DNA of 64,000 nt from Sphingopyxis sp. PAMC25046 (lineage in GTDB: Bacteria > Pseudomonadota > Alphaproteobacteria > Sphingomonadales > Sphingomonadaceae), in the NCBI RefSeq assembly GCF_004795895.1, contig NZ_CP039250.1, positions 2,790,001 to 2,854,000 of the forward strand. The letters are read 5' to 3'. Each line of letters starts with the position of its first letter. Within the stretch, counting starts at the first letter, position 1. The notes beneath the pieces were generated by a model that saw nothing but the letters and a program-made list of their open reading frames with translations, was not told where the DNA came from and searched no databases. The position numbers and the translations under genes were made by a program. This document shows, piece by piece, positions 26,050 through 53,684 of this stretch.

Positions 26050-26775
26050 TCAATCATCCTTCACCGCAGCGTGATTGGCGTCGCCGAACATGTTCGACCA
26101 CTCCTTCTCGTCGAGCGCCTGGTGCCGGCCGATATATTTCGCTGGCGCCTTAAGCTCATCGCGCGCCATCGCGCGCGCCACGGCGGGACGTTCGCGGATA
26201 CGTTCGAACCAGCCGCGCATCGCAGGCCATTCGTCGAGCCCCGGCCCCATTACGAACGCCGAAGCGCGGCCGGGCCAGATCGCCATATCGGCGATGCTAT
26301 AGTCGTCGCCCGCGACATGGGCGCTCTTTTCCAGCCGTTTCTCGAGCACGGTAAGCAGGCGTGTGAGCTCCTTCGTATAGCGCTCGGTCGCATAATCCTG
26401 CCCCGCCGGGGCGTAACGCAGGAAATGGCTCGCCTGCCCGCCCATGGGCCCCAGCCCCGCGACCTGCCAGGTCAGCCACGACAGCGTCGCCGCGCGCGCC
26501 GCGCCCGACGCCGGCAGGAAACGCCCGCTTTTTTCCGCCAGATATTGCAGGATCGCGCCCGATTCGAACACCGTCACGGGTTCGCCGCTACCTGCCGGGG
26601 CATGATCGACGATTGCGGGCAATTTGTGGTTAGGGTTGATGCGCCCGAACTCGGCGGTCAGCTGGTCGCCCTCGAAAATGTCATAGGAGATGACGCGATA
26701 GGGGTCGCCGATCTCTTCGAGCATGATCGCTATCTTCTGTCCGTTCGGCGTCGCCGAATAATGCAGGTCGATCAT
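26050..26775 (-). CDS. Glutathione S-transferase, YfcG/Ure2p-like
   Basis: 241 residues. The thioredoxin-like N-domain has the TPNGQK motif (T and N of the Nu/Ure2p class active site), INPNHKLPAIVDH (cis-Pro) and FESGAILQYLAEK (Glu-Ser for glutathione). The helical C-domain has YSIADMAIWPG (N-capping motif). The ATG ending at 26775 shares one base with the stop of the upstream DUF3237 gene, so they form an operon. It is clearly paralogous to the GST at 30189. It may act in glutathione conjugation, glutathione-lyase or disulfide chemistry within the catabolic island. Confidence 0.92.
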   Translation of the reverse strand: MIDLHYSATPNGQKIAIMLEEIGDPYRVISYDIFEGDQLTAEFGRINPNHKLPAIVDHAPAGSGEPVTVFESGAILQYLAEKSGRFLPASGAARAATLSWLTWQVAGLGPMGGQASHFLRYAPAGQDYATERYTKELTRLLTVLEKRLEKSAHVAGDDYSIADMAIWPGRASAFVMGPGLDEWPAMRGWFERIRERPAVARAMARDELKAPAKYIGRHQALDEKEWSNMFGDANHAAVKDD

Positions 26776-27272
26776 CACAATATCTCGTGGATCACATGGC
26801 GCACGCCGAAACCGGTGCGTTCGCCGACGCCGACCGCGAGCACGCCGTTGAGCCAGCCATATGTCGCGCTGGCGGTTTCGAACACCGGCGCGATTCGCAG
26901 ATAGTAGCGCGAAGGGTCGGCATCGGGCACCGCGGGATCGGCAAAGGTCGCGCGGACATCGTCGGGAATGATATTTCGGCCGGTATAGCTCAGATAGATG
27001 AGCTCGCCGTCATCGGTCTGCCACACCGCACGCGCATCGAAGGTGCCGACCGACGCATCGCCGCCGAGCCGTCCGCTGCGGGACCAGTTGCCGCCACCCG
27101 GCAAGACTATCCCCTTGATCCGGGGCCCGAAAAAACGACCCCCGCTGATATAGCCCAATCGCTGGTCGCCGAACGGCGACGCGCCGATTCCGATGATCCC
27201 GCCGCCGACCTCGAACTCGACGGTACACAGATGACGCGTTGCGAGCGCCGCGTGCCGATTTTCTTCGTTCAT
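26775..27272 (-). CDS. DUF3237 family protein
   Basis: 165 residues, no signal peptide. DUF3237 features: LCTVEFEVGGGIIGIG near the N-terminus, GDASVGTFDARAVWQTDDGELIYLSYTGRN in the middle and YYLRIAPVFETASATYGWLNGVLAVGVG near the end. Its biochemical role is not established; members often sit in lipid or aromatic catabolic clusters. The ATG ending at 27272 (MNEENRHAAL) is used; the longer frame to 27332 would cross the operator at 27314. Forms an operon with the GST and is divergent from the TonB receptor. Confidence 0.85.
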   Translation of the reverse strand: MNEENRHAALATRHLCTVEFEVGGGIIGIGASPFGDQRLGYISGGRFFGPRIKGIVLPGGGNWSRSGRLGGDASVGTFDARAVWQTDDGELIYLSYTGRNIIPDDVRATFADPAVPDADPSRYYLRIAPVFETASATYGWLNGVLAVGVGERTGFGVRHVIHEIL

Positions 27273-27313
27273 GATGCGAATCCTCTTCCTGCCTATGGAC
27301 AAGCATAAAACCA

Positions 27314-27325
27314 TTAGTATACTAA
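27314..27325. promoter_or_regulatory. Perfect palindrome TTAGTATACTAA (island operator, site A)
   Basis: A perfect 12-bp palindrome between the divergent DUF3237-GST operon and the TonB receptor operon. It has the TTAG-N4-CTAA form known for SlyA/MarR binding sites (Salmonella SlyA consensus TTAGCAAGCTAA). Related sites occur at six other promoters of the island. Confidence 0.7.
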
Positions 27326-27395
27326 GGGTCAATCAGATTGACGGATCGGAAGGCTTTCCGGGACCGGCAGCGATCAGCTCTATGGGAGGGTGACA

Positions 27396-29684
27396 ATGAA
27401 GGCTCGCAACCAGTTTCTGCTGTCCGGCGTCGCGGGAATCGCGATGCTCGCCAACGCCGCACCGGCGTTTGCGCAGGCGGCGCCCGCCGACGCGGCCACT
27501 GTCGACGTGCCTGACGTCGACGACAGCAATACCAACGAAATCATCGTCACCGCGCAGAAGCGCGAGCAGAGCCTGCAGGATGTACCGATTTCGATGGAGG
27601 TCGTCAGCGGCGCCAAGCTCGCCGAATTCAACACGAGCGACATCAAGGCGGTGATGAACTACACGCCGAACGTCTTCGTTCAGTCGACCGCGGGCAACGA
27701 CGTCATCTATATCCGCGGCTTCGGCTCGCCGCCGGCGAACTTCGCCTTCGACCAGTCGGTCTCGCTCTATGTCGACGGTATCTATGCCGGTCGCAACCGG
27801 CAGGCGCAGGCCCCCTTCTTCGACCTCGAACGCGTCGAGGTTCTGCGCGGTCCGCAGGGCGCGCTGTTCGGCAAGAATACCGCTGCGGGCGCGGTCAGCG
27901 TCGTCTCGGCGGGGCCGACCAAGGATTTCGAAGGCGCGATCACGGGCCTCTATAATTTCGATCATAAGGGCACCGACTTCTCGGGCTATCTGTCGGGGCC
28001 GATCACCGACACGCTCGGCGCGCGCTTCGCGTACAAGATCGTCAACCAGGACGGCTACATCTATAACCGCGCGAAGGATCATGACGACCCCGAAATCAAG
28101 TCGCAGCTGCTGCGCCTGACGCTGAAGTGGGAACCATCGGACAATTTCGACTACACAGCGAAGGTCGAATATGGGAAGCGGACGGTCATCGGCGGCATCA
28201 CCGTGTCGAGCCCGCTGACCAGCGATCAGGACCCGCAGACCAACCGTTATCTCGAACGCTCGGCGCTCGGCGACGAAGGCAACAAGAACAAGTCGGTGAT
28301 GATATCGGGCGTCGGCAACCTCGCGCTCGGCGATTTCACGCTGACCTCGGTCACCGGCTACAGCTGGTTCAAGTCGAAGATCGTCAACGGCTTCGACCAG
28401 ACGATCCCGAACAGCGGCGGCGCCTTTACGGCCAATTCGGTCTACAACGCCTTCCCCGAGCGCTTCGACCAATTCTCGCAGGAAATCCGCATCCTGTCGC
28501 CGGTCGGGGAGACCTTCGAGTTCATCGGGGGCGCTTACTACGACAAGTCGAATTACACGCTGGAGCAATATCAGGGCTTCAACCTCCCGAGCCTGACGAT
28601 CCCCGGCGTATTTACCGGCCCCTATTTCGGCCGCATCGACAGCATCTTCAATCAGGAAGCCGAAAGCTGGTCGGTCTTCGGCCAGGGAACGCTCAACGCG
28701 ACCGATGCGCTCCGCGTCATCGGCAGCCTGCGCTACACCCACACCAAGAAGGACGGCGATTTCGCCGCGCGGCTGGTCTACGGCTCGAACGGCCTCAACG
28801 GACAGCCCTTTGCGCTGCGCCCGATTTCCAGCGCGGTGGGCAAGATCAGCGAAGGCAACGTCGATCCCTCGGTCACTGTGCAATATGACGTCGCGCCGCG
28901 CGTCATGCTCTACGCGACCTGGGGCCGCGGGTCGAAATCGGGCGGCTTCGTCTCGAACACGCTCGGCACCGTCGACAGCACCTTCACCTTCGAGCCCGAA
29001 CAGTCGGAGAATTTCGAGGCGGGCATCAAATCGACGCTGTTCGACGGCAAAGTCGTCGCGAACGTTTCGGCCTATCACACGCAGTTCAAGGATCTGCAGG
29101 TATCGGTCTATCAGCCCGCGACGTCGAGCTATCTGACCGGCAATGCGGCGAGCGCAACGTCGAAGGGGATCGAGGGATCGCTCAGCGTCTTCCCCATTCC
29201 CAATTTCGACATCAACGCGTCGGCCGCCTATTCGGACATCAAATATGACGATTATCCTGGCGCGGCTTGCCTCGCGTCGCAACCGGCTACCTGTACCCCG
29301 GCGACGAACAATCTCGCGGGCTATCCGGTCGCCTATTCGTCGAAATGGACCGGCAGCGTCACGGCGCACGCGCGCTTCGACATGTCGGACGCGCTGAAGC
29401 TCGATGTCACCGGCGTCGCTGCCGGCCGGTCGAAATATTTCAATTCGGACAATCAGAGCCCGGTGTTCGGTGTCCAGAACGGCTATGTGAAGCTCGACCT
29501 GCGCGTCCAGCTCGCCGATCAGGACGACCGCTGGCACGTCGCGCTCGTCGGCAAGAATCTGACGAACCAGAAGACGATTGGCAGCGCCTTCAACCTGCCT
29601 TTCCCGATCACGCCGGTACCGCGCGCGATCCTGTACCTCGAACCGACCCGCAATATTTCGGTCGAGGCCGGGATCAAGTTCTAG
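27396..29684 (+). CDS. TonB-dependent receptor of the catabolic island
   Basis: A 762-residue outer-membrane transporter with a signal peptide (LSGVAGIAMLANAAPAFAQ), the TonB-box region NEIIVTAQKREQSLQDVPIS, a plug with IYIRGFGSPPANFAFDQSV and VEVLRGPQGALFGKNTAAGAV, and a beta barrel ending SVEAGIKF. There is no STN domain, so unlike the receptor at 779 it is not expected to signal. The ATG at 27396 is 5 nt after GGAGGG; a GTG at 27390 is an alternative. It heads an operon with an NTF2-fold protein and a GST, under site A. The ligand is unknown, probably the organic substrate of the island. Confidence 0.94.
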   Translation: MKARNQFLLSGVAGIAMLANAAPAFAQAAPADAATVDVPDVDDSNTNEIIVTAQKREQSLQDVPISMEVVSGAKLAEFNTSDIKAVMNYTPNVFVQSTAGNDVIYIRGFGSPPANFAFDQSVSLYVDGIYAGRNRQAQAPFFDLERVEVLRGPQGALFGKNTAAGAVSVVSAGPTKDFEGAITGLYNFDHKGTDFSGYLSGPITDTLGARFAYKIVNQDGYIYNRAKDHDDPEIKSQLLRLTLKWEPSDNFDYTAKVEYGKRTVIGGITVSSPLTSDQDPQTNRYLERSALGDEGNKNKSVMISGVGNLALGDFTLTSVTGYSWFKSKIVNGFDQTIPNSGGAFTANSVYNAFPERFDQFSQEIRILSPVGETFEFIGGAYYDKSNYTLEQYQGFNLPSLTIPGVFTGPYFGRIDSIFNQEAESWSVFGQGTLNATDALRVIGSLRYTHTKKDGDFAARLVYGSNGLNGQPFALRPISSAVGKISEGNVDPSVTVQYDVAPRVMLYATWGRGSKSGGFVSNTLGTVDSTFTFEPEQSENFEAGIKSTLFDGKVVANVSAYHTQFKDLQVSVYQPATSSYLTGNAASATSKGIEGSLSVFPIPNFDINASAAYSDIKYDDYPGAACLASQPATCTPATNNLAGYPVAYSSKWTGSVTAHARFDMSDALKLDVTGVAAGRSKYFNSDNQSPVFGVQNGYVKLDLRVQLADQDDRWHVALVGKNLTNQKTIGSAFNLPFPITPVPRAILYLEPTRNISVEAGIKF

Positions 29685-29691
29685 GTTCGAT

Positions 29692-30192
29692 ATGATGTCC
29701 CAGGGATCGGCCGCGGCCCAAGCTTTCCTCGACAGGGAAGCGGCAGCCGCGGTCGTGACCTGTTATGCGGCCGCGCTCGATGCACGCGACTGGGCCGCCT
29801 ATCGCGCGCTCTTCATCGACGAGATCGCGATCGATTATGGCGCGATTGGCTCGCTCGTCGCCACCGTGTCCGCCGACGAGTGGACGAAGCGTTGCAAGGC
29901 GCTCGAAGGCTTCGACGCGACCGCGCACCAGCTCCATAACGTCATCGCGACGATCGACGGCGACCGCGCGACGGTGACGAGCATCGTCGATGCCGTCCAT
30001 GTCGTCGGCGTCGAGGACCGTGCGCTCCTCGGCGATCTGATCGGCCGCTACACGCATCGCCTTGTGCGTCAGGAAGGATGGAAGATCGCGGGCGTGACCC
30101 TGACCGTCGTCGCCTATCCCGCCGGGAAGGAGGCTTTCGAAGCCGCCTTCGCCGCCGCGCGCGCCATTTTCGCCGAAGGGAACCTCGCATGA
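29692..30192 (+). CDS. NTF2-fold protein (SnoaL_4-like)
   Basis: 166 residues forming an NTF2/SnoaL-like cone fold: FLDREAAAAVVTCYAAALDARDWAAYRALFIDEIAIDYG is the typical helix-turn-Asp entry, followed by TAHQLHNVIATIDGDRATVTSIVDAVHV. The His in AHQLHN and the Asp in DARDW match the positions that act in related dehydratases and isomerases. Adjacent ATGs at 29692 and 29695 are both possible starts. It lies 7 nt after the receptor stop and overlaps the GST by 3 nt. Likely a hydratase, isomerase or cyclase for the island substrate. Confidence 0.82.
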   Translation: MMSQGSAAAQAFLDREAAAAVVTCYAAALDARDWAAYRALFIDEIAIDYGAIGSLVATVSADEWTKRCKALEGFDATAHQLHNVIATIDGDRATVTSIVDAVHVVGVEDRALLGDLIGRYTHRLVRQEGWKIAGVTLTVVAYPAGKEAFEAAFAAARAIFAEGNLA

Positions 30193-30899
30193 TCGACGTC
30201 TATTTCACGCCCACACCCAACGGCCACAAGGTGTCGATCATGCTCGAAGAAGTCGGCCTGCCGCATCAACTTCTCGCGATGAACATGCTCGAGGGCGACC
30301 ATCTGACCCCCGAATATCGCCGCATCAACCCGAACGGCCGCTTGCCCGCGATCGTCGACCATGATCCGGTCTGCGGCGCCGCGCCGCTACCGGTGTTCGA
30401 GAGCGGCGCGATCCTGCTCTATCTTGCCGAGAAGAGCGGGCAGCTGCTTCCGGCCGACCCGCGCCGGCGCAGCCAGGCGCAGCAATGGCTGATGTGGCAG
30501 ATGGCGAGCTTCGGCCCGATGCAGGGTCAGGCGCATCATTTCATCCGCTACGCGCCCGAGGGGCAGACCTATCCCGTCGAACGCTATCGCAACGAGACGC
30601 TGCGGCTGCTCCACGTCCTCAACGGGCGGCTGGCCGAGGCCGGCTTTCTAGCCGAAGAATATTCGATCGCCGATATCGCGGCATGGCCGTGGACGCGCGC
30701 GATCCGCGCGATCGGTTTGACCCTCGACGATTATCCTGCCGTCGCCGACTGGTTCGCGCGCATCGGCGAACGCCCTGCGGTGATCGCCGGGACCGACGTT
30801 AAAAATGCCGCCAACCTGTCGAGCGCGCGCCCGGTGCTGACAGAAGCGCAATGGTCGAATTTGTTCGGCAAGAATATGCTGGAAGCGCCGACGCGCTAG
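30189..30899 (+). CDS. Glutathione S-transferase, YfcG/Ure2p-like (second copy)
   Basis: 236 residues, colinear with the GST at 26050: TPNGHK active-site motif, EYRRINPNGRLPAIVDHDP, FESGAILLYLAEKSGQLLPA, HHFIRYAPEGQTYPVERY and EEYSIADIAAWPW. The two copies flank the TonB receptor on opposite strands, evidence of duplication within the island. The ATG overlaps the NTF2-protein stop. It may handle a different intermediate or stereoisomer from its sister. Confidence 0.92.
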   Translation: MIDVYFTPTPNGHKVSIMLEEVGLPHQLLAMNMLEGDHLTPEYRRINPNGRLPAIVDHDPVCGAAPLPVFESGAILLYLAEKSGQLLPADPRRRSQAQQWLMWQMASFGPMQGQAHHFIRYAPEGQTYPVERYRNETLRLLHVLNGRLAEAGFLAEEYSIADIAAWPWTRAIRAIGLTLDDYPAVADWFARIGERPAVIAGTDVKNAANLSSARPVLTEAQWSNLFGKNMLEAPTR

Positions 30900-30991: not shown

Positions 30992-31759
30992 CTAGATGCT
31001 GTCCGCGTGCCCCCACTGATATTCGACCTTGCCGTCGAGCCGCCGCACGGCGACCCAGTCGCCGCCCGCAAGGCTGTCGTCCTCGATCAGCGCCATGACG
31101 CCCCCGGCGATATCCTCGGGTCGGCACGCCTCATTGTTCGCCAGCACGGCCTTCATCCATTCGGACTTGCCGCCCGCGCCCGTCGTGTCGAGGATCGGCG
31201 TGTCGACCAGACCCGGCAACATGCCCGCGACGCGGACATTGCACTCCTCCTTCAAAGGTGCGCAGCAGCGCGTGAACATCATCACCGCGGCCTTGGTCGT
31301 CGCATACATCGCGTCGTAGAAGCCGGTGCCGAGCGCGACCGTCGACACGGTATTGATAATCACCCCGCCGCCGCGCTTCTTCATCTTCTGCACCGCGATC
31401 TGCGTTGCCGCGACGAGCGAGGTGATGTTGACGTCGATGATCCAGCGGATGCGCGCGGCATCGACATCGGGGAATTGCGGCAGGCCCGACACGACCCCGG
31501 CGTTGTTGTGCAATATATCGACGTCGCCATGCACCTCAAACCAGGCTTCGACCGCCGGGACGTCGGAAAGGTCCAGAACATGGGTTGTGACCCGCGCGCC
31601 CTTTGCCGCGACGAGCCGCGCGGTTTCGGCGAGGGCATCTTCCTTGACATCGACCAGCCTGATTTCCGCCGCGCCGCGTTCCACGAGCATCACGGCGGTT
31701 GCACGGCCGATGCCGCCCGCCGAACCCGTCACAATGGCGCTTTTGCCTTGGATCTCCAT
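30992..31759 (-). CDS. Short-chain dehydrogenase/reductase
   Basis: 255 residues. Classical SDR: cofactor motif TGSAGGIGRA, an Asp (RLVDV) after the second strand favouring NAD(H), NNAGV, Ser in NTVSTV, and the catalytic Y-x3-K in MYATTKAAV. The ATG ending at 31759 follows GGGAGAGAAG directly; an alternative ATG lies at 31777. The open frame continues far upstream, but that part is antisense to the MFS gene and has no coding character. Divergent from the MFS operon across site B. Confidence 0.92.
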   Translation of the reverse strand: MEIQGKSAIVTGSAGGIGRATAVMLVERGAAEIRLVDVKEDALAETARLVAAKGARVTTHVLDLSDVPAVEAWFEVHGDVDILHNNAGVVSGLPQFPDVDAARIRWIIDVNITSLVAATQIAVQKMKKRGGGVIINTVSTVALGTGFYDAMYATTKAAVMMFTRCCAPLKEECNVRVAGMLPGLVDTPILDTTGAGGKSEWMKAVLANNEACRPEDIAGGVMALIEDDSLAGGDWVAVRRLDGKVEYQWGHADSI

Positions 31760-31812
31760 CTCTTCTCTCCCGCTCATCTTGCCGCTACCGTAAAGCACAT
31801 TGACAGATAAAC

Positions 31813-31824
31813 TTAAATATCTAA
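31813..31824. promoter_or_regulatory. Imperfect island operator (site B), TTAAATATCTAA
   Basis: Lies between the divergent SDR gene and the MFS operon. It keeps the outer TTA/CTAA of the island palindrome but differs in the centre; extended to CTTAAATATCTAAG it is a 14-bp near-palindrome. The weakest of the seven sites. Confidence 0.4.
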
Positions 31825-31867: not shown

Positions 31868-33163
31868 ATGACCGAGGCCACCGCCCTCAGTGCAGGCAGC
31901 GCAGCGCCGGACAGCGGCCATGCGCTCCGCCGCAACGTCGCGCTCGCGATGCTGTTCGTCGTCGGAACGATCAACTTCGTCGACCGTCAGCTCCTGTCGG
32001 TGCTCGTCGAGCCGATCCGCGCCGAAATGGATTTCAGCGACACGCAATTCGGGCTGCTCACGGGCTTTGCGTTCGCACTCTTCTATGCCGCCGCCGGAGT
32101 GCCGGTGGCGATGATCGCCGACCGCTGGAACCGGGTGAAGCTGATCGGCATCGCCTGCGTCGTTTGGAGCGGCTTCACCGCGGCGTGCGGTATGGTCTCG
32201 AATTTCTGGCAACTCGCGCTGATGCGCTTCGGCGTCGGCGCCGGCGAAGCCGGCGGCACCGCGCCCTCGCTGTCGGTGATCGCCGATTATTATCCGCCCG
32301 CGCGGCGCCCGCTTGCGATCGGCCTGTTCACGCTCAACGGCCCGTTCGGGGTGTTCGTCGGCGCAACCTTCGGCGCATGGGCGGCCGCGAATATCGGCTG
32401 GCGCAACGCCTTCATCGTCATCGGGATCGTCGGCATCCTCGTCGCGCCGCTTTTGGTCTGGCTCGTCCGCGAACCCGCGCGCGGGGCGATGGACGCGCAC
32501 AAGCCCGCCGACGAAGCCCTGCCCTTTTCGCAGAGCCTCGCGATGTTTATCCGCCGTCCGTCGCTCCGCATGGTGATGATCGGCAGCGGGCTCGCCGCCT
32601 TCGTGAGCTATGGCATGCTCAACTGGATCCCCGCTTTCCTGATGCGCACCCAGAAGATGCCGTTGGAAGCGATGGCCACATATTTCGGTCCCGCCGCGGG
32701 CATCACCTTCGGCATCGGCATCCTCGGCGGCGGCTGGCTCGTCAGTCACCGCGCGAAGGTGTCGGCGCGTGCCTACGGCACCATCCCCGCGCTCGCGACC
32801 GCGGTGCTGATCCCGACCTTCATCGCGGCGCTTCTCGTCGATAGCTGGCAGGTCTCGCTCGCGCTGATGCTGATTCCGATGGCGGCATGTACCGCCTATG
32901 TCGCCCCCGCACTCGCGCTGGTGCAGAACCTCACGCCGCCGCGCAGCCGCGCGACCGCCGCCGCGGTGCTGATGCTGATGTTCAACATCATCGGGCTGGG
33001 GCTCGGCCCGCTTTTCGCCGGGGTCGTCAGCGATAGTCTGAAGCCGGTCCACGGCGACGAAAGTCTCCGCTGGGCATTGATGGCGCTGATGCCTTTCGCC
33101 GCCGCCGCCGGTCTCGCCCAATATCGAATGACGCGTTATCTCGAAAAGGATTTCGCCGAATGA
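31868..33163 (+). CDS. MFS transporter
   Basis: 431 residues with 12 predicted membrane helices. GTINFVDRQLLSVLVEPI is the helix-1 motif of the spinster-like/aromatic-acid MFS group, with the conserved loop motif AMIADRWNRVKLIG between helices 2 and 3 and RFGVGAGEAGGTAP in helix 4. The ATG at 31868 follows GGGGAGAG. It overlaps the SDR at 33160 by 4 nt and heads a five-gene operon. It probably imports an organic acid or the product taken up by the receptor. Confidence 0.92.
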   Translation: MTEATALSAGSAAPDSGHALRRNVALAMLFVVGTINFVDRQLLSVLVEPIRAEMDFSDTQFGLLTGFAFALFYAAAGVPVAMIADRWNRVKLIGIACVVWSGFTAACGMVSNFWQLALMRFGVGAGEAGGTAPSLSVIADYYPPARRPLAIGLFTLNGPFGVFVGATFGAWAAANIGWRNAFIVIGIVGILVAPLLVWLVREPARGAMDAHKPADEALPFSQSLAMFIRRPSLRMVMIGSGLAAFVSYGMLNWIPAFLMRTQKMPLEAMATYFGPAAGITFGIGILGGGWLVSHRAKVSARAYGTIPALATAVLIPTFIAALLVDSWQVSLALMLIPMAACTAYVAPALALVQNLTPPRSRATAAAVLMLMFNIIGLGLGPLFAGVVSDSLKPVHGDESLRWALMALMPFAAAAGLAQYRMTRYLEKDFAE

Positions 33164-34047: not shown

Positions 34048-34057
34048 GGAGAGCATT

Positions 34058-34453: not shown

Positions 34454-34463
34454 GGAGTCAATC

Positions 34464-36698: not shown

Positions 36699-36709
36699 GG
36701 AGACGGATC

Positions 36710-39168: not shown

Positions 39169-39207
39169 GCAAATGTTTGGCCAGCCCAAAAATCGAGAGG
39201 ATTGGCC

Positions 39208-44228: not shown

Positions 44229-44229
44229 G

Positions 44230-45383: not shown

Positions 45384-47018
45384 TCAGCGGGTGACTTCAA
45401 AGGGCAGCTCATAGCCTGCCAGCCCCGCACGGATTGCCTTCTTGTCGATCTTGCCCGTCGGCCCGAGCGGGATATCCGCGACGAACAGCACGTCGTCGGG
45501 CATCCACCAGCGCGCGATCTTGCCGTCGAGAAAGTCCTTGAGGTCGTCGGCGGAGGCGCTGGCGCCGGGCTTCAACTGGCACAACAGAATCGGCCGCTCG
45601 TCCCATTTGGGATGCGCAACCCCGACGACCGCGGCGTTGGCGACCGCCTCATGCCCCATCGCGATATTTTCGATCTCGATCGAACTGATCCACTCGCCGC
45701 CCGACTTCACGACATCCTTCGCGCGATCGGTGATCTGCATATAGCCTTCGGCGTCGATCGTGCTGACGTCGCCGGTGTCGAAAAAGCCCTCGTCGTCGAG
45801 CACCTCGCCGCCCTCGCCGCCATAATAGGCGCCCGCGATCGTCGGCCCCTTGATCATCAGCCGCCCCGGCGTCGTGCCGTCGTGCGGCAGGCGATTTCCC
45901 GCGTCGTCGATTAGCTTCATCTCGAGCCCGCAGAGCAACCGCCCCTGCTTGAGCTTGTACGCCATCTGCGCGTCATCGCCCTTCGCAGCAACCGACGCAT
46001 TGGGGACCGACACGGTCCCGAGCGGCGAGGTTTCGGTCATGCCCCAGCCCTGGACGACGTCGACGCCATAGTCGTCGCGGAAGGTGCGGATGATCGATTC
46101 GGGGCACGCCGACCCACCGATCGTCACGCGCTCCAAAGTCGTGAAACGCTTCCCATTTTCCTGCATATAGGTGAGCAGCATCTGCCATACCGTCGGCACC
46201 GCGGCCGAGTAAGTGACGCCTTCCTGCTCGATCAGATTATAGATCGATTCGCCGTCCATCCGCTGCCCGGGCAGCACGAGCTTCGCGCCGACTGCGGGCG
46301 CCGAATAGACCACGCCCCACGCATTGGCATGATACATCGGCACGACCAGCAGCACCGTATCGCGCGCCGACAGCGCGAGCGCGTCGCGCTGCAAGGTCAT
46401 CAGCGCGTGGATATAATTGGAACGGTGCGAATAGAGCACACCCTTCGGATTGCCCGTCGTCCCGCTGGTGTAGCAGAGCCCGCACGCCGCATTTTCGCCG
46501 AACCCGCCCCAATCATATTCGTCGCTATGGCCCGCGATCCAATCGTCGAACGCGACCGCGGCAAAGCTGGTTTCGGGCATCGACGCAGCGTCGCAAAAGA
46601 AGATCACCTTCTCGATGCTCGGCACCTGCGGCAACAGTTCTTCCACCAGATCGGCGGTCGCCGGATCGGCGATCAGCAATCGGTCGCCGGCATGGTTCGC
46701 AATATAGGCGATCTGTTCGGGAAACAGCCGCGGATTGAGCGTGTGAAGCACCGCCCCCATGCCCGCGGCGCCATACCAGGCGCCAAGGTGCCGCGCGCCG
46801 TTCCACGCCATCGTCGCGACGCGGTCGCCCGGCTTGATCCCCTCGGCGGCGAGCGCATTCGACACGCGCTTCGCGTCGGCATGGACGTCGGCATAGGTGG
46901 CGCGGGTGACACGCCCCTCGGCATCGCGCGACACCACCTCGCGCGCGCCGTGCCAGGTCGCCGCATGGTCGATGATCCGGTCGACCGTCAGCGGCACATT
47001 CTGCATCAACCCGTCCAT
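45384..47018 (-). CDS. Fatty-acid/aryl-CoA ligase (AMP-forming)
   Basis: 544 residues of the ANL superfamily: P-loop YTSGTTGNPKGVLYSH, GWGMTETSPLG, FFDTGDVSTIDAEGYMQITD, the hinge RAKDVVKSGGEWISSIEIEN and the catalytic Lys in GPTGKIDKKAIR. The ISSIEIEN ending of the hinge is typical of medium- and long-chain fatty-acyl-CoA ligases. First gene of a six-gene operon (ligase, hydrolase, kinase, enolase-like, dehydrogenase, hydrolase) divergent from a MarR gene across site D. Confidence 0.93.
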   Translation of the reverse strand: MDGLMQNVPLTVDRIIDHAATWHGAREVVSRDAEGRVTRATYADVHADAKRVSNALAAEGIKPGDRVATMAWNGARHLGAWYGAAGMGAVLHTLNPRLFPEQIAYIANHAGDRLLIADPATADLVEELLPQVPSIEKVIFFCDAASMPETSFAAVAFDDWIAGHSDEYDWGGFGENAACGLCYTSGTTGNPKGVLYSHRSNYIHALMTLQRDALALSARDTVLLVVPMYHANAWGVVYSAPAVGAKLVLPGQRMDGESIYNLIEQEGVTYSAAVPTVWQMLLTYMQENGKRFTTLERVTIGGSACPESIIRTFRDDYGVDVVQGWGMTETSPLGTVSVPNASVAAKGDDAQMAYKLKQGRLLCGLEMKLIDDAGNRLPHDGTTPGRLMIKGPTIAGAYYGGEGGEVLDDEGFFDTGDVSTIDAEGYMQITDRAKDVVKSGGEWISSIEIENIAMGHEAVANAAVVGVAHPKWDERPILLCQLKPGASASADDLKDFLDGKIARWWMPDDVLFVADIPLGPTGKIDKKAIRAGLAGYELPFEVTR

Positions 47019-47045: not shown

Positions 47046-47057
47046 GTAGTATACTAA
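47046..47057. promoter_or_regulatory. Island operator (site D), GTAGTATACTAA
   Basis: 11 of 12 bases match TTAGTATACTAA. Lies 28 bp upstream of the ligase-operon start and 105 bp before the divergent MarR gene, so it could serve repression and autoregulation together. Confidence 0.65.
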
Positions 47058-47161: not shown

Positions 47162-47608
47162 ATGCGCACAAACCAGCTTATCATCGCGCTTTTTCAACGC
47201 TTCTGCTGGCTCGACGAAGGGCTGCAGGCGCGGCTTCACGATCATGGCTGGCCCGATGTCAATCGTCCGCAATCGATGATAATGACCAATATCGTCAGCG
47301 GCGTCGTGCGCCCGTCGGACATCGCGCGCAATCTCGGCGTGTCGCGGCAGGCGGTCCACAGCACTATCAACCAGATGGTGAAGCTCGGCATCGTTCGGCT
47401 CGACGTCGATCCCGACGACCGCCGCCACATGATCGTGTCGCTGACCGACCTTGGCGCACGCATGCGCAAGGATGCGCAGCGATCGATGGACGCGCTCACC
47501 GCACAGATCGCCGACCGCCTCGGTCAGGACAAGTTCGACGCGCTGCTCGCCGCGCTCGAGGCTGACTGGGGCGACAATATCGCGCGCGCGGCTTCGCGCA
47601 CTCGCTAG
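47162..47608 (+). CDS. MarR family transcriptional regulator
   Basis: 148 residues with a winged helix: VVRPSDIARNLGVSRQAVHSTINQMVKLGIVRLDVDPDDRRHMIVSLTDLG (recognition helix SRQAVHSTINQM and the wing with DDRR). Flanking N- and C-terminal helices form the dimer, as in MarR/SlyA. It lies beside the strongest cluster of TTAG-N4-CTAA sites and next to a CoA-ligase promoter, so it is one of two candidate regulators of the island. It converges on the FMN reductase gene, the stop codons overlapping. Confidence 0.92.
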   Translation: MRTNQLIIALFQRFCWLDEGLQARLHDHGWPDVNRPQSMIMTNIVSGVVRPSDIARNLGVSRQAVHSTINQMVKLGIVRLDVDPDDRRHMIVSLTDLGARMRKDAQRSMDALTAQIADRLGQDKFDALLAALEADWGDNIARAASRTR

Positions 47609-48180
47609 ACGGCAAGCGCCTTCGCGACAGCGACCAGCCGCGCGGCGGTCATATCCACCAGCGACGCGGGCAACGGCTCCTTCAGACTGCCATCGTCGGC
47701 AAAGGCCGCGTGCGCGTTCGGCACCAGCACCTGTTCGGGAATCACGAGCATCTGGATCGTCGACAAAATCTGGCGCAGGTGCATCAGCCCGCGCAGCCCC
47801 CCAAAGGGGCTGATCGACGCCGACATGATCGCCGCCGCCTTGCCGCGATAGGCGGAAAGCGCGACAAGGCTCTCGTCGCCGGTGGGCCGCGATGCCCAGT
47901 CGATCGCATTCTTGAGCAGCGGCGACAGCGAACCATTATATTCGGGCGACACGAACAGCAGCCCGTCCTGCGCGGCGAACAGTGTCTTGAGCTTCAACGC
48001 GCCAGGCGGAAAGGCGCCGGCTTCGAGCGCCGCCGAATAGACCGGCAGGTCGAAAGCCGCGAGATCGACCCGCGTGACGCTTGCGCCCTGCGCTTCGAGG
48101 CTCGCGGCGGCGAGTTCGCCCAAGGCGCGATTGAACGACCCCTCTCGGGTGCTCCCGACGATGACGGCGATGCTGGTCAT
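47605..48180 (-). CDS. NADPH-dependent FMN reductase family protein
   Basis: 191 residues with a flavodoxin-like fold: phosphate loop GSTREGSFNRALG, and FVSPEYNGSLSPLLKNAIDWAS (the family's isoalloxazine-binding motif). Members reduce FMN or quinones with NAD(P)H. The start is preceded by GGGAGGG. Site E lies 22 bp upstream of the ATG. It may supply reduced flavin or detoxify quinone intermediates. Confidence 0.92.
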   Translation of the reverse strand: MTSIAVIVGSTREGSFNRALGELAAASLEAQGASVTRVDLAAFDLPVYSAALEAGAFPPGALKLKTLFAAQDGLLFVSPEYNGSLSPLLKNAIDWASRPTGDESLVALSAYRGKAAAIMSASISPFGGLRGLMHLRQILSTIQMLVIPEQVLVPNAHAAFADDGSLKEPLPASLVDMTAARLVAVAKALAV

Positions 48181-48201
48181 TTTCCCTCCCGGACAATATA
48201 A

Positions 48202-48213: not shown

Positions 48214-48244
48214 CCTATTGTCCGGTCGCGGCAAGATCAAGCGC

Positions 48245-48751
48245 TCAGGCCTTGATGTCCGAAAGCACCGCGAGCTTGCGCGTTTCGTCGGCGAGATTGT
48301 CGATCACGCGGCGCATCAGCCCCTGCAGCACTTCGACCTCCTCGTCGCTCATGCCCTTGGTCGCGATCTCGTGAATCTCGGCGTTCATCGGCGCGAGGAT
48401 CAGCTCGAGCTTCTTCGCATGCGGGGTCAGATGAATGAAGGTCTTGCGCCGGTCGTCGGTCGTCTTCTTGCGCGTGATCAGCCCTGCCTTTTCCAGCCCT
48501 TTCAGCGCGACAACGGTGGTCGGCTCGCGCATCCCCACGCGTTCGCTCAGTTCGCGCTGGGTAATGCCGTCCTCGCGCCAGAGCTGGCGCAGGAAACGCC
48601 ACTGCCCCGCCGAAACGTCGTGCGTCAGCGTGCGGCGTTCGAGCAACCGCGAAAAGGAACGGAAGACGACGCGCGCGAGGTAGCCGATGCTGTTTTCAGG
48701 ATCGGTATAATATTCGGCGGGATGCCTATAATCCTTTGTTTTCTTTATCAA
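48245..48751 (-). CDS. MarR family transcriptional regulator
   Basis: 168 residues with a winged helix: GITQRELSERVGMREPTTVVALKGLEKAGLITRKKTTDDRRKTFIHLT, a better match to the SlyA-type wing (DDRRK) than the other MarR here. The start is inferred as TTG at 48751 (LIKKTKDYRHPAEYY), downstream of AGGGGAG. The frame continues to 48904, but that part is unlike MarR proteins and would cover site F. Lies between the FMN reductase and leuD-like genes, divergent from the latter. Confidence 0.88.
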   Translation of the reverse strand: MIKKTKDYRHPAEYYTDPENSIGYLARVVFRSFSRLLERRTLTHDVSAGQWRFLRQLWREDGITQRELSERVGMREPTTVVALKGLEKAGLITRKKTTDDRRKTFIHLTPHAKKLELILAPMNAEIHEIATKGMSDEEVEVLQGLMRRVIDNLADETRKLAVLSDIKA

Positions 48752-48909
48752 AATCCTGCTCCCCTGTCGCAGCGCCGGGTGCCGACCCCACCGCGTGTCA
48801 AATCTTAGGACGCGAAGGTTCGCGCGGCAACCATCTTCGTCGCCGCGTCCTGTCCTGTCACCGTTCCAACCCCGCGATAATGTTGGACAAGATTCGCCAA
48901 TCAATATAC

Positions 48910-48921
48910 TTAGAATACTAA
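48910..48921. promoter_or_regulatory. Island operator (site F), TTAGAATACTAA
   Basis: 11 of 12 bases match TTAGTATACTAA. Only 16 bp upstream of the leuD-like GTG and between it and the divergent MarR gene, where bound protein would block transcription or initiation. Confidence 0.65.
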
Positions 48922-48936
48922 GCTAATGGAGGCGAT

Positions 48937-49521
48937 GTGCAAAGATTCATTCGGACGAAAGCGGTCGCGGCGCCCTTGCCGCTCGCCAATGTCGACACGG
49001 ACATGATCATTCCCGCCGAATATATGAAGGCGCTGACGCGTTCGGGCCTTGGTCGCCATCTCTTCCGCGAGTTGCGCTTCGACGGGAATGGCCGTGAACG
49101 CGGGGATTTTATCCTCAACCGGCCTGCCTGCCGCGACGCGCGGATTCTGGTCGCCGACCGCAATTTCGGCTGCGGCTCGTCGCGCGAACATGCCGTGTGG
49201 GCGCTCACCGATTTCGGGATTCGCTGCATCATCGCGCCGAGTTTCGGCGATATCTTTGCCGGCAATGCGCGCAAGAACGGCCTACTGCTCATCCGCTTGC
49301 CCGACGATAGCTGCGCCCGCCTGCGCAGCGAGATCGAATATACCCGATATGCGCCCATCGAGGTCGACCTCGAAACGCAGCGCATCCGCCTCGTCTCGGG
49401 TGAGACGATCGCTTTCAAGGTCGATCCCGACGACCGGCGCATATTGATGGAGGGGCTCGACGATATCGCCCGCACGCTGCGTCACGCCGACGCCATCGCG
49501 CGGTTCGAGGCCGCAACCTAG
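48937..49521 (+). CDS. leuD: Small subunit of an isopropylmalate-dehydratase-type hydro-lyase (LeuD-like)
   Basis: 194 residues with the LeuD swivel-domain signature: [59 protein letters not shown] start at 48937 follows GGAGG. With LeuC this family adds or removes water on 2-alkylmalates (isopropylmalate, citramalate, dimethylmaleate). Unusually it faces leuC, the two genes meeting tail to tail with overlapping stops, under separate copies of the island operator. A catabolic role in the island is at least as likely as leucine synthesis. Confidence 0.9.
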
Positions 49522-50930
49522 TCGAGCATCGTCGGCGACGCGACGCAGCCCGCTATCGCACTCGCCGCCGCCAGCGCCGGGCTCATCAGGTGGGTGCGTC
49601 CGCCGCGCCCCTGGCGATTCTCGAAATTGCGGTTCGAGGTCGCGGCGCAGCGTTCGCCGGGTTGCAGCCGGTCGGCATTCATCCCGACGCACATCGAACA
49701 ACCCGGTTCGCGCCAATCGAAACCTGCGGCGCGCAGCGTGTCGGCGACACCCTCCGCCTCGGCCTGCCTTTTGACCAGCCCCGATCCCGGCACGACCATC
49801 GCGCGGACGTGCGGCGCGATGCGGCGTCCGCGCACGATGTCGGCGGCGATGCGCAAATCCTCGATCCGGCTGTTGGTGCAGCTGCCGATGAAAATGCGGT
49901 CGAGCCGCTGGCCGGCAATCGCCCGCCCGGGGGCAAGGTCCATATAGGCGAGCGCGCGCTCGGCCGCGGCGCGCGCGTCGGGATCGGCCAGCGCCGCCGG
50001 GTCGGGAACGGGATCGTCGATCGCGACGACCTGCGACGGATTGGTCCCCCAGCTCACCATCGGCCGCACGTCGCGCGCATCAAATTCCAGTTCGCGGTCG
50101 AACGCCGCGTCGGCGTCGCTCGCCAGCGCCGCCCAGCGCGCCACGGCCGCATCCCACGCGTCGCCGCGCGGCGCCGCCGGGCGCCCGTTCAGATAGGCGA
50201 GCGTCGTCGCATCGGGCGCGACCAGCCCGGCGCGCGCGCCCATCTCGATGCTGAGGTTGCACAGCGTCATCCGCGCTTCCATCGACAGCGCGCGCACGGC
50301 CTCGCCGGCATATTCGATGACATGCCCCCCCGCGCCGTCGACGCCGATCGCGCCGAGCAAATGAAGCGCGAGGTCCTTGGCATGGACATGCGGCGCCAGC
50401 GCGCCCTCGACGGTCACGCGCATGTTGCGCGAGCGGCGCTGGCGGATCGTCTGCGTCGCCAGCACATGTTCGACCTCCGACGTACCGATCCCGAAGGCGA
50501 GCGCGCCGAACGCGCCGTGGGTCGAGGTGTGGCTGTCGCCGCAGACGATCGTCATCCCGGGCTGCGAGCGCCCCTGTTCGGGGCCGACGACATGGACGAT
50601 CCCGCCGCGCGGATCGCCCATCGGGAAATTCTCGATGCCGAAGCGGCCCGTATTTTCGACCAGCACCTCCAGCTGCGCCCGCGCCTCGCGGTCGGCGACG
50701 CCGGCGGGGCCTGCCGCCTGCCCCGCCGTCGGGACATTATGGTCGGACAGGGCCAGCGCGCGCTCGGGACGCCGCACCGCCCGCCCCGCGGCCGCAAGGC
50801 CGGCAAAGGCCTGCGGCGACGTGACCTCGTGCAGCAGATGCAGGTCGATATAGAGCAGGGTCTCGCCATCGTCCTCGGCGACGGCGTGCGCATCCCATAT
50901 CTTGTCGTAAAGCGTGCGCGGGCGGGTCAC
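49518..50930 (-). CDS. leuC: Large subunit of an isopropylmalate-dehydratase-type hydro-lyase (LeuC-like)
   Basis: 470 residues. [12 protein letters not shown] at the start, [26 protein letters not shown], and the iron-sulfur ligands Cys in [14 protein letters not shown] and C-x2-C in GCSMCVGMN, then [24 protein letters not shown]. All ligands of the [4Fe-4S] cluster are present. The GTG start at 50930 overlaps the acyl-CoA dehydrogenase stop (GTGA), so it is the third gene of the APH-ACAD-leuC operon. The open frame continues upstream without coding character and is not used. Confidence 0.92.
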
Positions 50931-52222
50931 AATTTCCCCAGCGTCTCTTTCCGGGGCCCCAGATAACCGAAGAGATAGGCTGCGACTTTCCGCATCTGGA
51001 TCTCTTCGGCGCCTTCGGTGATGCGATAGCGACGATGGTGGCGGTAGATATGTTCGAAGGGTTTGTGGCGCGAGTATCCGATGCCGCCATGGACCTGCAT
51101 GGCGCGGTCGGCGGCTTCGCAGACAAGGCGGTTCGCCCAATAGTTGCACATGCTGACCTTGTCGGACAGCGTGCGCTCGATTTCCTTGTGCGGCGTGTTG
51201 TCCATGTCCCACGCGGTTTTGCGGATGAGCAGGCGCAGCATCTCGGCCTGCGTTGCCAGCTCGACCAGCGGGAACTGGATCGCCTGGTTCTTCGCCAGCG
51301 CCTCGCCGAACGGCTTGCGCGTCCGGGCGTATTTCACGCTTTCCTCGATGCAGTAGACGGCGGCGCCCAGCGAGCTTGCCGCCTGGCGAATGCGATTCTG
51401 GTGGACGAAACTTTGCGCGATCGCGAGCGCGCCGCCCTCGGGGCCGAGCCGCGCGCTGTCGGGCACCCACACATCGGTGAACGTCATGCGCGGATGGTCG
51501 GTCGGCATGTTGAACGTCCACATATATTCGTCGACGCTCATTCCCGGCGTTCCCGTCGGAACGAGCAGGCAGGTGATGCCCTTCGCCTCGCCGTCGGCGC
51601 CGCTCGTGCGGCAAAAGGTCGCGCAGTGCGTCGCGACGTGCATGCCGGTGATCCACATCTTGCGCCCGTCGATGCGCCAGCCGTCGACGCCATCGCGCGT
51701 TTCTCGCACGCCGCGCGTCTCCATATGCGTCGCGTCGCTGCCGTGATCGGGTTCGGTCAGGCCGAAGGCGGTGCGCCGCCTGCCCTCGAACCCGCCGAGG
51801 ATGAACTCGGCCTTCTGTTCGTCGCTGACCCCGAACTGCTCGAACATCTCCACAAAGGGGAAGTTGCCGACGATGCTGTGCTCGTTCTGAAGGTCGTTGT
51901 GGAGCCCCAGCCCCTTCGCCGCCAGATGCTCGCGGATCACCGCCATCCAGAGGTTGCTACCGTCCTTGCCGCCATATTTCTTAGGCGCCGAAAAGCGCCA
52001 GTGGCCCGCGGCGTCGGCTTTGCGCGTCGCGGCCTTGAGCAGCTCTTCCCACTCGTGCCGCGGCAACCCCTGATTGTCCCAGTCGGTGCGCGCATGCTCG
52101 CGGCGATGGTCGAAGAAGCGGATATTGTCGTCTGCAAGCTCGAGCGGCTTGATCTCGGCCGCGATAAAGCGATCGAGTTCTTCCAGATAGGCCGCAAGGT
52201 CGGCGGGCATCGCAAAATCCAT
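50927..52222 (-). CDS. Acyl-CoA dehydrogenase family protein, paired with APH kinase
   Basis: 431 residues of the ACAD fold: helical N-domain ([20 protein letters not shown]), middle beta-domain ([26 protein letters not shown] for FAD/acyl binding), helical C-domain (GRIRQ-like [35 protein letters not shown]) and [35 protein letters not shown], which holds the region of the catalytic Glu. It lies 21 nt after an APH kinase gene. In Pseudomonas levulinate catabolism (LvaA/LvaC) and mammalian ACAD10/11, an APH kinase and an ACAD together turn 4-hydroxyacyl-CoA into beta-oxidation intermediates; a similar use is inferred here. Confidence 0.9.
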
Positions 52223-52243
52223 CGTCTCTCTCCCTGATCTATC

Positions 52244-53635
52244 TTATCCGCGCCACGCCGCGCGCGCCGCGGCCAGCGGCGCGTATTTGGGGCTGTCGAC
52301 CGCGCATTTGCTCAGCACATCGCGCCGCAGCTTTGCGAGCAGCGCGGGTTCGGACAGCGTCCGCTCGCCCGACAGCAGCGCATCCGCGAGCGCCTTGTCC
52401 TCCGCGCGGCATCCGGCGCCCAGATCGCGCAGCACGATGCCGAGCGCGTTCATCGCCACCACCGCCTCGAACTTGGCATGGCCTTGCGCACCCGGTTTGA
52501 TCGCGCCTTCGATCCAACCCCGCACCGCCTCGACCATCTCGGCGTTCGTCGGCTCGCCCGTCGGCGCGTGTGCGGCCTCCGGCGACGCGGGAAGTGCCCG
52601 GTCGCGCTCGGCATCGGGCGCCTCCACCTCGAGCAGCCGGACAAGGTCGAGCTCCTGCTCGGCCGTCCGCCGCCCGACGACAACGCGCTCGATCGTCCTG
52701 TCGGCGCCGCTCCGCCATGCCTGCCCCATCTGCAGGCACCCAAGCGCCCACCAGAGCGTCCGGTAGATCAGCCAGAAGCGGAAGCGGTCGCGGTCGACCT
52801 TCACGCCCCCCGCGCCCTCATAGGCCGCAAAATAGTCATCGAGGCTGCCGAGCCCGAACGCCGGCCGATCGAGCTGCCCGAAGCGCCACACGCTCATGCA
52901 GCCGAACGCCAGATCCTCGTGCGCGTCGCCGCGGTGCGCCAGCTCCCAGTCGAGCACCGCGGCCAGGCCATCCGGCCCCGCCATCACGTTGCCCATCCGG
53001 TAGTCGCCATGCACCAGCACCGGCGGCGCCGGGTCGGGCAGATGATCCTCGCACCAGCGGATCGCGAGCGCGATCGCCGGGCGGTCGCCGCCGTAAGACA
53101 GAAAGCGCGCCTTGAGCTCGGCGAGCGCTGCGCCCGTGTCCATCAGCGGGATCGCGTCGGGAACCGTATCCAGCGGAATGGCGTGGATATGCGCCAGCTC
53201 GCGGCCGAGATCGCCGAGCAACGACGCGGGCGGATCGGCCAGTATCTTCGCCGGCGACACCTCGCCGACCACCCGCCGCATGACATAGCCGGTGCCGAGA
53301 GCGTCGCCCGGCTCCAGCGCCCCCACCACCTCCGGCGCCCGAACCCCCGCCGCAAAGGCCGCCATCACCAGCGCCGCCTCGTCGCGATGGCCGAACGGAC
53401 GATCGGCCATATAAGCGGCCGATGGCGCGCGGCGCAGGACATAACCCGCCGTCCGGCCCTCCGCCTCCCAGTCGAACGACCAGCTCTCCATATTCGCGCC
53501 GCCCGAAAGGCGCGATAAGCCGGAAAGCGCGCCGGCGCCAACGATACGCAGCATCAACAGGGAAAGCAGATCGGAGAAATCCGTCACAGGGCCGGCGGCC
53601 GGCGCAGCATCGGGTTTCGTCGGTATCTCGCGCAT
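52244..53635 (-). CDS. APH-fold kinase fused to a DUF6285-like C-terminal domain
   Basis: 463 residues. Residues about 35-320 are an APH-type kinase: LSRLSGGANMESWSFDW, the Brenner motif VLVHGDYRMGNVM and AAVLDWELAHRGDAHEDLAF, close to the ACAD10/11 kinase. Residues about 355-463 (EMVEAVRGWIEGAI, FEAVVAMNALGIVLRDLG) look like DUF6285, which is often a separate small protein next to such kinases; this resemblance is from memory. First gene of the operon with ACAD and leuC, under site G. Likely phosphorylates a hydroxyacyl-CoA for the ACAD to act on. Confidence 0.88.
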   Translation of the reverse strand: MREIPTKPDAAPAAGPVTDFSDLLSLLMLRIVGAGALSGLSRLSGGANMESWSFDWEAEGRTAGYVLRRAPSAAYMADRPFGHRDEAALVMAAFAAGVRAPEVVGALEPGDALGTGYVMRRVVGEVSPAKILADPPASLLGDLGRELAHIHAIPLDTVPDAIPLMDTGAALAELKARFLSYGGDRPAIALAIRWCEDHLPDPAPPVLVHGDYRMGNVMAGPDGLAAVLDWELAHRGDAHEDLAFGCMSVWRFGQLDRPAFGLGSLDDYFAAYEGAGGVKVDRDRFRFWLIYRTLWWALGCLQMGQAWRSGADRTIERVVVGRRTAEQELDLVRLLEVEAPDAERDRALPASPEAAHAPTGEPTNAEMVEAVRGWIEGAIKPGAQGHAKFEAVVAMNALGIVLRDLGAGCRAEDKALADALLSGERTLSEPALLAKLRRDVLSKCAVDSPKYAPLAAARAAWRG

Positions 53636-53672
53636 AGCCCTTGCTTCCCACCCCCGTCGCCCGACACTTTAC

Positions 53673-53684
53673 TTAGTATGCTAA
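53673..53684. promoter_or_regulatory. Island operator (site G), TTAGTATGCTAA
   Basis: 11 of 12 bases match TTAGTATACTAA. Located 38-49 bp upstream of the APH kinase start, at the right edge of the island. Confidence 0.65.

Follow-up and report, generated by a model that had tools for sequence, protein, structure and literature searches.

A conserved palindrome appears to join a catabolic island of Sphingopyxis and its relatives into one MarR-type regulon

Can a single short palindrome tie a broad mix of transport and enzyme genes into one system, and which protein would read it? The question is raised by a 64,000-nucleotide stretch of Sphingopyxis sp. PAMC25046 (contig NZ_CP039250.1, positions 2,790,001 to 2,854,000), hereafter the window, in which an island at positions 26050 to 53684 carries a 12-bp palindrome at one promoter after another and encodes two MarR-family proteins, MarR1 and MarR2 (Table 1). 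The original prediction, made from the letters of this stretch, tentatively placed the island under one repressor, with both MarR proteins in view as regulators. Sequence comparison confirms a real, conserved MarR-type regulon, points to MarR2 as the likely regulator and extends the regulon outside the window. With a probability of about three in four, the island is one MarR2-controlled catabolic regulon comprising seven promoter regions and one distant locus, and its palindrome appears to place some thirty genes of Sphingopyxis and its relatives under a common switch.

The palindrome is enriched in the window. A scan for TTAGTATACTAA with up to three mismatches returned seven matches, against a mean of 0.99 and a maximum of 4 in 100 dinucleotide shuffles, none of which reached seven. 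The matches lie at 27314 (exact), 47046, 48202, 48910 and 53673 (one mismatch each), 39157 (two), and 48901 (three), the last overlapping the palindrome at 48910. Seven sites had been predicted, six of them sharing at least 10 of their 12 bases with the consensus; these six reappear as close matches, and the seventh, at 31813 (TTAAATATCTAA), is weak and falls outside the list. All sites are intergenic and lie beside gene starts, as had been stated. The number of bracketed genes had been put too low, at 22, since 26 open reading frames lie between 27314 and 53673, or 28 with the divergent left operon.

The possibility that such a site is equally frequent by chance elsewhere was addressed in the complete genome (4,497,392 bases), with the motif written backwards as the control. 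Allowing one mismatch, TTAGNATACTAA occurs at eight distinct places, six of them within 27314-53684 and two elsewhere, and the backwards control yields four forward and four reverse matches. Counting the control as four places gives a Poisson probability of about 2e-13 for six sites within 26.4 kb; counting it as eight gives about 1e-11. The exact form TTAG-N4-CTAA is found at eight palindromic places, four of them in the island, and is rare in the genome in that its control is found at 23.

The sites are also retained at orthologous promoters. Loci were gathered from named genomes through the hydrolase ABHb, which is 97-98% identical in the closest named relatives, and 80 were kept of the 102 encoding a relative. 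They span Sphingopyxis, Novosphingobium, Sphingomonas, Polymorphobacter, Phenylobacterium, other Caulobacteraceae, and Hyphomonadaceae. A site with at most one mismatch is present in all 31 distinct intergenic regions between CoA ligase A and the MetE-like gene, in 37 of 39 between MarR1 and CoA ligase B, in 30 of 36 between LeuD and MarR2, and in 4 of 5 between the DUF3237 and TonB receptor genes, where all 10 additional stretches likewise hold TTAGTATACTAA without a mismatch. Arrangements outside the sphingomonads follow suit: in Phenylobacterium, another member of the Caulobacteraceae, and other alphaproteobacteria, the MetE-like and MarR2 genes diverge from a shared region with the site between them (6 of 8 with at most one mismatch, 8 of 8 with at most two).

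For each promoter, upstream regions with at most one mismatch were counted and compared with the counts of 179 control palindromes made by permuting the half-site. None of the controls equalled the count for the MetE-like gene (47/51), CoA ligase A (35/40), FMN reductase (37/57, 33 of them exact), MarR2 itself (43/64), LeuD (31/42), the APH-DUF6285 fusion APHLva (8/8, seven exact), the TonB receptor (4/6), or DUF3237 (5/14), and one control each did so for CoA ligase B (40/54) and MarR1 (42/58). Some controls score high, as with 43 of 51 for the MetE-like gene, presumably because certain permutations resemble the real site. Counts that few controls reach were also obtained for LeuC (9/36; 4 of 179 controls) and for the VOC (6/49), ABHb (5/80), and kinase APHa (7/64) genes (1 of 179 each). 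Genes internal to operons have no such sites upstream, namely the enolase paralog (ENO; 0/62), the D-2-hydroxyacid dehydrogenase (2HDH; 0/62), and the hydrolase ABHa (0/64), and no enrichment was found upstream of the acyl-CoA dehydrogenase (0/8), SDRb (0/8), CMD (0/33), SMP30 (0/18), GSTb (0/7), SnoaL2 (1/28), and GSTc (1/27) genes.

The weak site at 31813, which had been counted with the set, is retained in a less strict version. By the strict pattern it is all but missing from the relatives (SDRa 0/8 and MFS 1/6 promoters). In a looser form, CTTA(A/G)-N4-(C/T)TAAG-like, it lies within one mismatch of TTAG-N4-CTAA in 16 of 17 gene rows, which amount to about 12 different promoters because SDRa and MFS share one; the chance of such a match is roughly 0.1 per 250-bp region, as estimated at equal base composition rather than from shuffles.

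The regulon reaches beyond the window. About 1.2 Mb from the island, a double site lies between a CaiB CoA-transferase-GST (glutathione transferase) operon and a gene for an HMG-CoA-lyase-like enzyme (299 bits; cut-off 246); its two palindromes are set 9 bp apart, as they are at 48901/48910. Of 80 genomes in the genus, 61 encode a CaiB ortholog, and in all 30 CaiB loci fetched, the own genome included, the site and the divergent lyase gene are kept. The CaiB locus touches the GSTa ortholog in 17 of the 30 and the DUF3237 ortholog in two. Ten of those 17 loci, selected for that adjacency, were read further, and all ten show the order CaiB - GST - GSTa - DUF3237 - site - TonB, after which the island continues; the site ahead of the TonB gene reads TTAGTATACTAA in each. 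Because this locus is joined to the island in relatives, it provides independent support for one system.

Other genomic sites were considered and set aside. The TonB receptor gene at genome position 4239090 was not counted as a member, as TTAGNATNCTAA with at most one mismatch occurs in 5 of 25 ortholog loci and the site is partly kept in a different form; exact TTAG-N4-CTAA with a free spacer is found in 10 of the 25, in some as TTGGTTAG-N4-CTAACCAA. The site at 3041606 (L029 5607) was left out because its operator, though related, is not the same: it reads TACTTAG-N4-CTAAGTA, the spacer being free, and all 12 loci in the genus show the exact half-sites. This operator serves a second cluster, MFS | TonB-DUF3237, perhaps a sister regulon that may be under another MarR protein. 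The candidate at 4402033 was likewise not counted, and a further weak match lies at 1615366.

Both predicted MarR-family genes (47162 and 48245) were recovered as such by Pfam, and the loci were used to ask which product reads the palindrome. MarR2, whose start we read as TTG at 48751 behind GGGGAG, was scored as present at 53% identity or above and is found in 62 of the 80 loci. Counted over the entire locus, a site is present in 60 of these 62 versus 7 of the 18 loci without MarR2, and 20 unrelated control palindromes occur in 0-6 of the 62 (mean 2.95). The site also persists where MarR1 is missing: it is present in 14 of the 15 MarR2 loci without MarR1 at 53% identity or above, and in seven loci lacking MarR1 at this cut-off, it lies about 90-210 bp upstream of MarR2. 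Of 249 genomes of the family, 9, the own genome included, encode a MarR2 ortholog at 67% identity or above, and 5 encode a MarR1 ortholog at 62% or above.

It is improbable that MarR1, alone or together with MarR2, reads the palindrome. MarR1 does lie inside the regulon beside the operator at 47046, with the site in most of its upstream regions as counted above; three of the 15 loci scored as lacking it (L144, L148, L153) hold a MarR1-like gene of 52-53% identity, and three loci with MarR1 and no MarR2 at the cut-offs carry the site. However, the site is kept in 9 of the 10 MarR2 loci (among the 62) without any MarR1-like gene at 35% identity or above, and in the genome G074, which has MarR2 and in which MarR1 was not found at E<=1e-15, the cluster contains ten site-like matches of at least 10 bits. 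The regulator is thus most likely MarR2 rather than both proteins, and we infer that MarR2 binds and represses at these sites.

Under this proposal, a MarR2 dimer would bind TTAGNATNCTAA (extended, approximately ATACTTAGNATNCTAAGTAT) at the seven promoter regions of the island, its own gene among the targets, and at the distant HMG-CoA-lyase-like | CaiB CoA-transferase-GST locus. The best -35/-10-like pair covers or abuts the palindrome at 9 of 11 promoters, by our own reading with permissive hexamers and no chance control, and a -10 hexamer (TATACT, TAGTAT or TATACA) lies inside the palindrome at 5 of the 11. At 27314, the site overlaps the pair TGGACA-16-TATACT. Since the operator lies on or next to -10-like elements at most promoters, the bound dimer would block RNA polymerase, and an inducer derived from the substrate, possibly the corresponding acid or a CoA ester, would free MarR2. 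The overlap fits simple repression; activation is also possible.

The same overlap could mean that the palindrome is itself a promoter element, a -10-like box, or else a mobile palindromic repeat, and no operator. Its core, TATACT/TATTCT, does resemble a -10 box and is suitably spaced from -35-like hexamers at several promoters. Either alternative is very improbable, given that conservation is concentrated in the half-sites. When 116 sites carrying no more than two mismatches are pooled, conservation reaches 99-100% in TTAG and CTA and is lower in the -10-like core; these sites were picked by best match, which biases the counts toward the TTAG and CTA columns. In the spacer, positions 5-8 most often hold T, A, T, and T/A. 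The outer bases read CTTAG...CTA(T/A)(C/G)TA. The rarity of the palindromic form elsewhere in the genome also speaks against these alternatives, and flanks that vary from site to site argue against a repeat element.

Several observations weigh against control of the whole set by MarR2. The relatives are not independent, with 32 of the 80 records named Sphingopyxis. Three genomes (G085, G242, and G021) encode a MarR2 ortholog (69-72%) and have no exact site genome-wide and no convincing site near MarR2, the one 10-bit match in G021 lying 10 kb off. Conversely, 22 genomes that lack a MarR2 ortholog contain TTAGNATNCTAA in exact form, G016 among them with ten matches, and the seven site-bearing loci that fall below the MarR2 cut-off belong here too, of which one, L104, shows an 88% low-coverage MarR2 match. 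G101 has MarR2, yet all its sites carry mismatches, and the sole site of L137 is far from MarR2. The promoters of the MetE-like and MarR1 genes have no good -35/-10 pair over the site, and the order of the enzymes proposed below is a guess.

Two of these cases can be described further. In the 40 kb read around MarR2 in G085 and G242 (L071 and L074), the MarR2 and APHa orthologs are adjacent, and the rest of the island and the operator were not seen. G016 belongs to the same family as Sphingopyxis; the eight of its ten matches that are listed all read TTAGGATACTAA/TTAGTATCCTAA, which are complements, and may perhaps form another regulon with a near operator.

The site had been likened to that of SlyA. 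The comparison holds for the half-sites, as the SlyA site TTAGCAAGCTAA and the island site share TTAG...CTAA and both regulators belong to the MarR family. It does not hold for the spacer, which is NATN in the island consensus instead of CAAG, or for the protein. Against solved chains, MarR2 matches PA3341 best (1e-13), a "SlyA-like" chain ranks third (2e-10), and chains named SlyA rank 7, 8, 9, and 11 (E 6e-9 to 2e-8). The SlyA label was therefore dropped, MarR2 being as near to many other MarR proteins as to SlyA, which is reported to antagonise H-NS. Another parallel in regulatory logic is DesR of Sphingobium SYK-6, a MarR-type repressor of vanillate and syringate genes (PMC6888825). Acting through inverted repeats, DesR represses its own gene as well as separate catabolic genes, as proposed for MarR2, but its operator, GTTTGTGT(C/A)ACATAC, is unrelated to the island consensus and its target genes differ. 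The regulatory architecture thus belongs to a known type. New variants are seen in the pathway and in its enolase.

The oddest part of the gene set is that enolase, which stands in a run with a kinase and a dehydrogenase. The paralog passes the phosphopyruvate hydratase model TIGR01060, and despite this its catalytic residue set is incomplete. In residue roles and numbering that we take to be those of yeast enolase, it carries Asp for Glu168 and Ala for His373 (E168D and H373A) in 63 of 63 sequences, and keeps Ser39, His159, Glu211, the metal ligands, Lys345, Lys396, and the phosphate-binding Arg374 and Ser375. A separate housekeeping enolase, 43-44% identical to the paralog, retains both Glu168 and His373. 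No open-access report of an enolase changed at both residues was found.

The neighbours of the altered enolase are constant. Where both genes were found, the kinase APHa adjoins ENO in 59 of 59 loci (three loci each showed one of the two only), 2HDH follows ENO in 60 of 60, and ABHa follows 2HDH in 61 of 61. Of 63 APHa rows, 60 hold an intact kinase motif, HGD/N/DAE, and three are gapped. It is doubtful, in light of this fixed order and of the distant CaiB locus joined to the island in all ten relatives read, that the clustered genes are several unrelated pathways under one regulator, such as a xenobiotic response with GSTs, even though the enzymes are of many kinds and, within the stretches read, fewer of the genes are retained outside the sphingomonads than in Sphingopyxis.

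For one MarR2-controlled pathway, we infer that the kinase, enolase, and dehydrogenase form a module that would phosphorylate, eliminate, and reduce or oxidise a dihydroxy acid other than glycerate, the changes in ENO suggesting an ATP-driven dehydration of a new dihydroxy-acid substrate. A more specific version is offered tentatively, as somewhat less than an even bet. In this catabolic route, shared from Sphingopyxis to Phenylobacterium, a 2,3-dihydroxy acid would be dehydrated at the cost of ATP: APHa would phosphorylate the 2-hydroxyl, the altered enolase would expel the 3-hydroxyl, and the resulting enol phosphate would give a 2-oxo acid for the dehydrogenase and hydrolase. The acid might be an aryl- or alkyl-substituted glycerate, for example, with E168D/H373A marking a changed leaving-group pocket. 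If so, a branch of the enolases would have left glycolysis to serve the degradation of one specific substrate under MarR control, and the altered enolase beside its own kinase would show cleanly how a central glycolytic enzyme can be recruited to new chemistry. Homologs of enolase have other roles in phosphinothricin biosynthesis, so only the catabolic use would be new.

The remaining genes may be arranged around this module, with the direction, step order, and substrate class all provisional. Uptake would occur through the TonB receptor and the MFS transporter, early steps would fall to the decarboxylase-like DUF3237 protein and the SnoaL, GST, SDR, CMD, lactonase, and VOC proteins, and two ligases would activate acids with CoA. 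The APH-DUF6285 fusion and the acyl-CoA dehydrogenase suggest a 4-hydroxyacyl-CoA intermediate. In the levulinate pathway LvaABCDE of Pseudomonas putida, an APH kinase with DUF6285 stands next to an acyl-CoA dehydrogenase, and the fusion is presumably comparable to LvaA-LvaB. The same three parts lie side by side in the island; here kinase and DUF6285 are fused and form one module of a larger set. LeuCD, the CaiB CoA transferase, and the HMG-CoA-lyase-like enzyme suggest an end module in which a substituted dicarboxylic acid would be split, giving an acyl-CoA together with a small oxo acid. The island LeuC and LeuD satisfy the 3-isopropylmalate isomerase models TIGR00170 and TIGR00171, but unlike a sole leucine-synthesis copy, the island LeuC has a second, 60% identical counterpart at genome position 542962.

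The gene content had been said to fit no catabolic cluster that could be named, and a search of the open-access literature agreed, returning no described cluster or named substrate to match it. A common natural substrate is implied by the retention of the gene set, with its own conserved operator, across several alphaproteobacterial families. Because the DUF3237 proteins PinX, PhcF, and PhcG act in lignin-dimer pathways (PMC12607616), a lignan- or aryl-propane-type substrate is a lead, no more. That sphingomonad catabolism of pinoresinol (PinX) and phenylcoumaran (PhcF/PhcG) shares the DUF3237 domain with the island; enolase, SnoaL, and MarR do not appear in the main text of the pinoresinol paper (PMC12607616), the single open-access report found to connect DUF3237 with catabolism. 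A ligand that frees MarR2 from TTAGNATNCTAA would point to the substrate.

Table 1. Genes and predicted operators of the island, in window coordinates unless marked genome; protein families were assigned with Pfam and NCBIfam
Feature	Position	Strand	Evidence or location
Glutathione transferase GSTa	26050..26778	-	Pfam; ortholog adjoins CaiB-GST operon in 17/30 loci
DUF3237 protein with the domain of PinX; candidate decarboxylase	26775..27272	-	Pfam PF11578 1e-31
Predicted operator TTAGTATACTAA	27314..27325	.	Between DUF3237 (-) and TonB receptor (+); exact match
TonB-dependent receptor	27396..29684	+	Pfam
SnoaL_4 protein	29692..30192	+	Pfam
GSTb, related to YfcG-type GSTs	30189..30899	+	
SDRa	30992..31762	-	Pfam
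Degenerate predicted operator CTTAAatatCTAAG	31813..31824	.	Between SDRa (-) and MFS (+); three mismatches to strict consensus
MFS transporter	31868..33163	+	Pfam
SDRb, SnoaL_2, CMD-domain protein, SMP-30 lactonase-like	33160..36034	+	Pfam
GSTc and VOC/glyoxalase-fold protein	36081..37303	+	Pfam
CoA ligase A	37556..39121	-	Pfam AMP-binding
Predicted operator ATAGAATACTAA	39157..39168	.	Between CoA ligase A (-) and MetE-like (+)
MetE C-domain-like protein	39202..40260	+	
Alpha/beta hydrolase ABHa	40346..41038	-	Nearest NCBIfam models PcaD-type, below their cut-offs
D-2-hydroxyacid dehydrogenase (2HDH)	41039..41959	-	Arg kept 64/64, His 63/64
Enolase paralog (ENO)	41956..43254	-	TIGR01060 464 bits, cut-off 300
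APH-fold kinase APHa	43251..44273	-	Pfam APH
Alpha/beta hydrolase ABHb	44230..45360	-	Among the set's most conserved proteins
CoA ligase B	45384..47018	-	NCBIfam PRK06018 858 bits, above cut-off 766
Predicted operator GTAGTATACTAA	47046..47057	.	Between CoA ligase B (-) and MarR1 (+)
MarR1, the regulon's second MarR protein	47162..47608	+	Pfam MarR_2 4e-10
NADPH-dependent FMN reductase	47605..48180	-	Pfam FMN_red
Predicted operator TTAGAATACTAA	48202..48213	.	Upstream of FMN reductase (-)
MarR2, proposed regulator	48245..48751	-	Pfam MarR PF01047 E 2e-15, above cut-off
Predicted double operator	48901..48921	.	48901 TCAATATACTTA and 48910 TTAGAATACTAA, 9-bp offset; between MarR2 (-) and LeuD (+)
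LeuD paralog	48937..49521	+	TIGR00171 204 bits, cut-off 116
LeuC paralog	49518..50930	-	TIGR00170 694 bits, cut-off 560
Acyl-CoA dehydrogenase (ACAD)	50927..52222	-	Pfam
APH kinase fused to DUF6285 (APHLva), one protein beside acyl-CoA dehydrogenase	52244..53635	-	Pfam
Predicted operator TTAGTATGCTAA	53673..53684	.	Upstream of APH-DUF6285 / ACAD / LeuC operon (-)
Eighth locus, double site	genome 1613412 (~1.613 Mb)		Between CaiB CoA transferase-GST operon and HMG-CoA-lyase-like gene

Some individual features merit a brief description. The His/Cys/Glu/Cys positions of the MetE-like protein, which we take to be zinc ligands, are invariant in 53 of 53 sequences, and GSTb presumably belongs to the class named Nu. 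A homology search with ABHb gave 4612 proteins among 7999 scored candidates, of which the best 120 bear generic names only. Its AlphaFold model (mean pLDDT 74.6) resembles monoacylglycerol-lipase-like alpha/beta hydrolases in a fold search, without a clue to the substrate.

Among the operators, the 48202 site is nested in a larger inverted repeat, CCGGACAATA ... TATTGTCCGG (48189-48198 / 48216-48225), right behind the MarR2 stop codon, which may be a terminator-like hairpin or a second element. An overlapping palindrome pair with a 9-bp offset occurs at three promoters, at 48901-48921 in the window, at 7414-7434 in L028, and at 21515-21535 in the G122 stretch L063+L064.

Further genes accompany the island in some relatives. 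A Rieske oxygenase and a Gfo/Idh dehydrogenase lie near it in nine loci (L117, L118, L120, L121, L128, L140, L141, L142, and L153). In the same nine and in L133 there is a third protein, without an NCBIfam match, that we take to be dihydroxyphthalate-decarboxylase-like. Some of all these loci also carry a MarR2 paralog of 36-38% identity.

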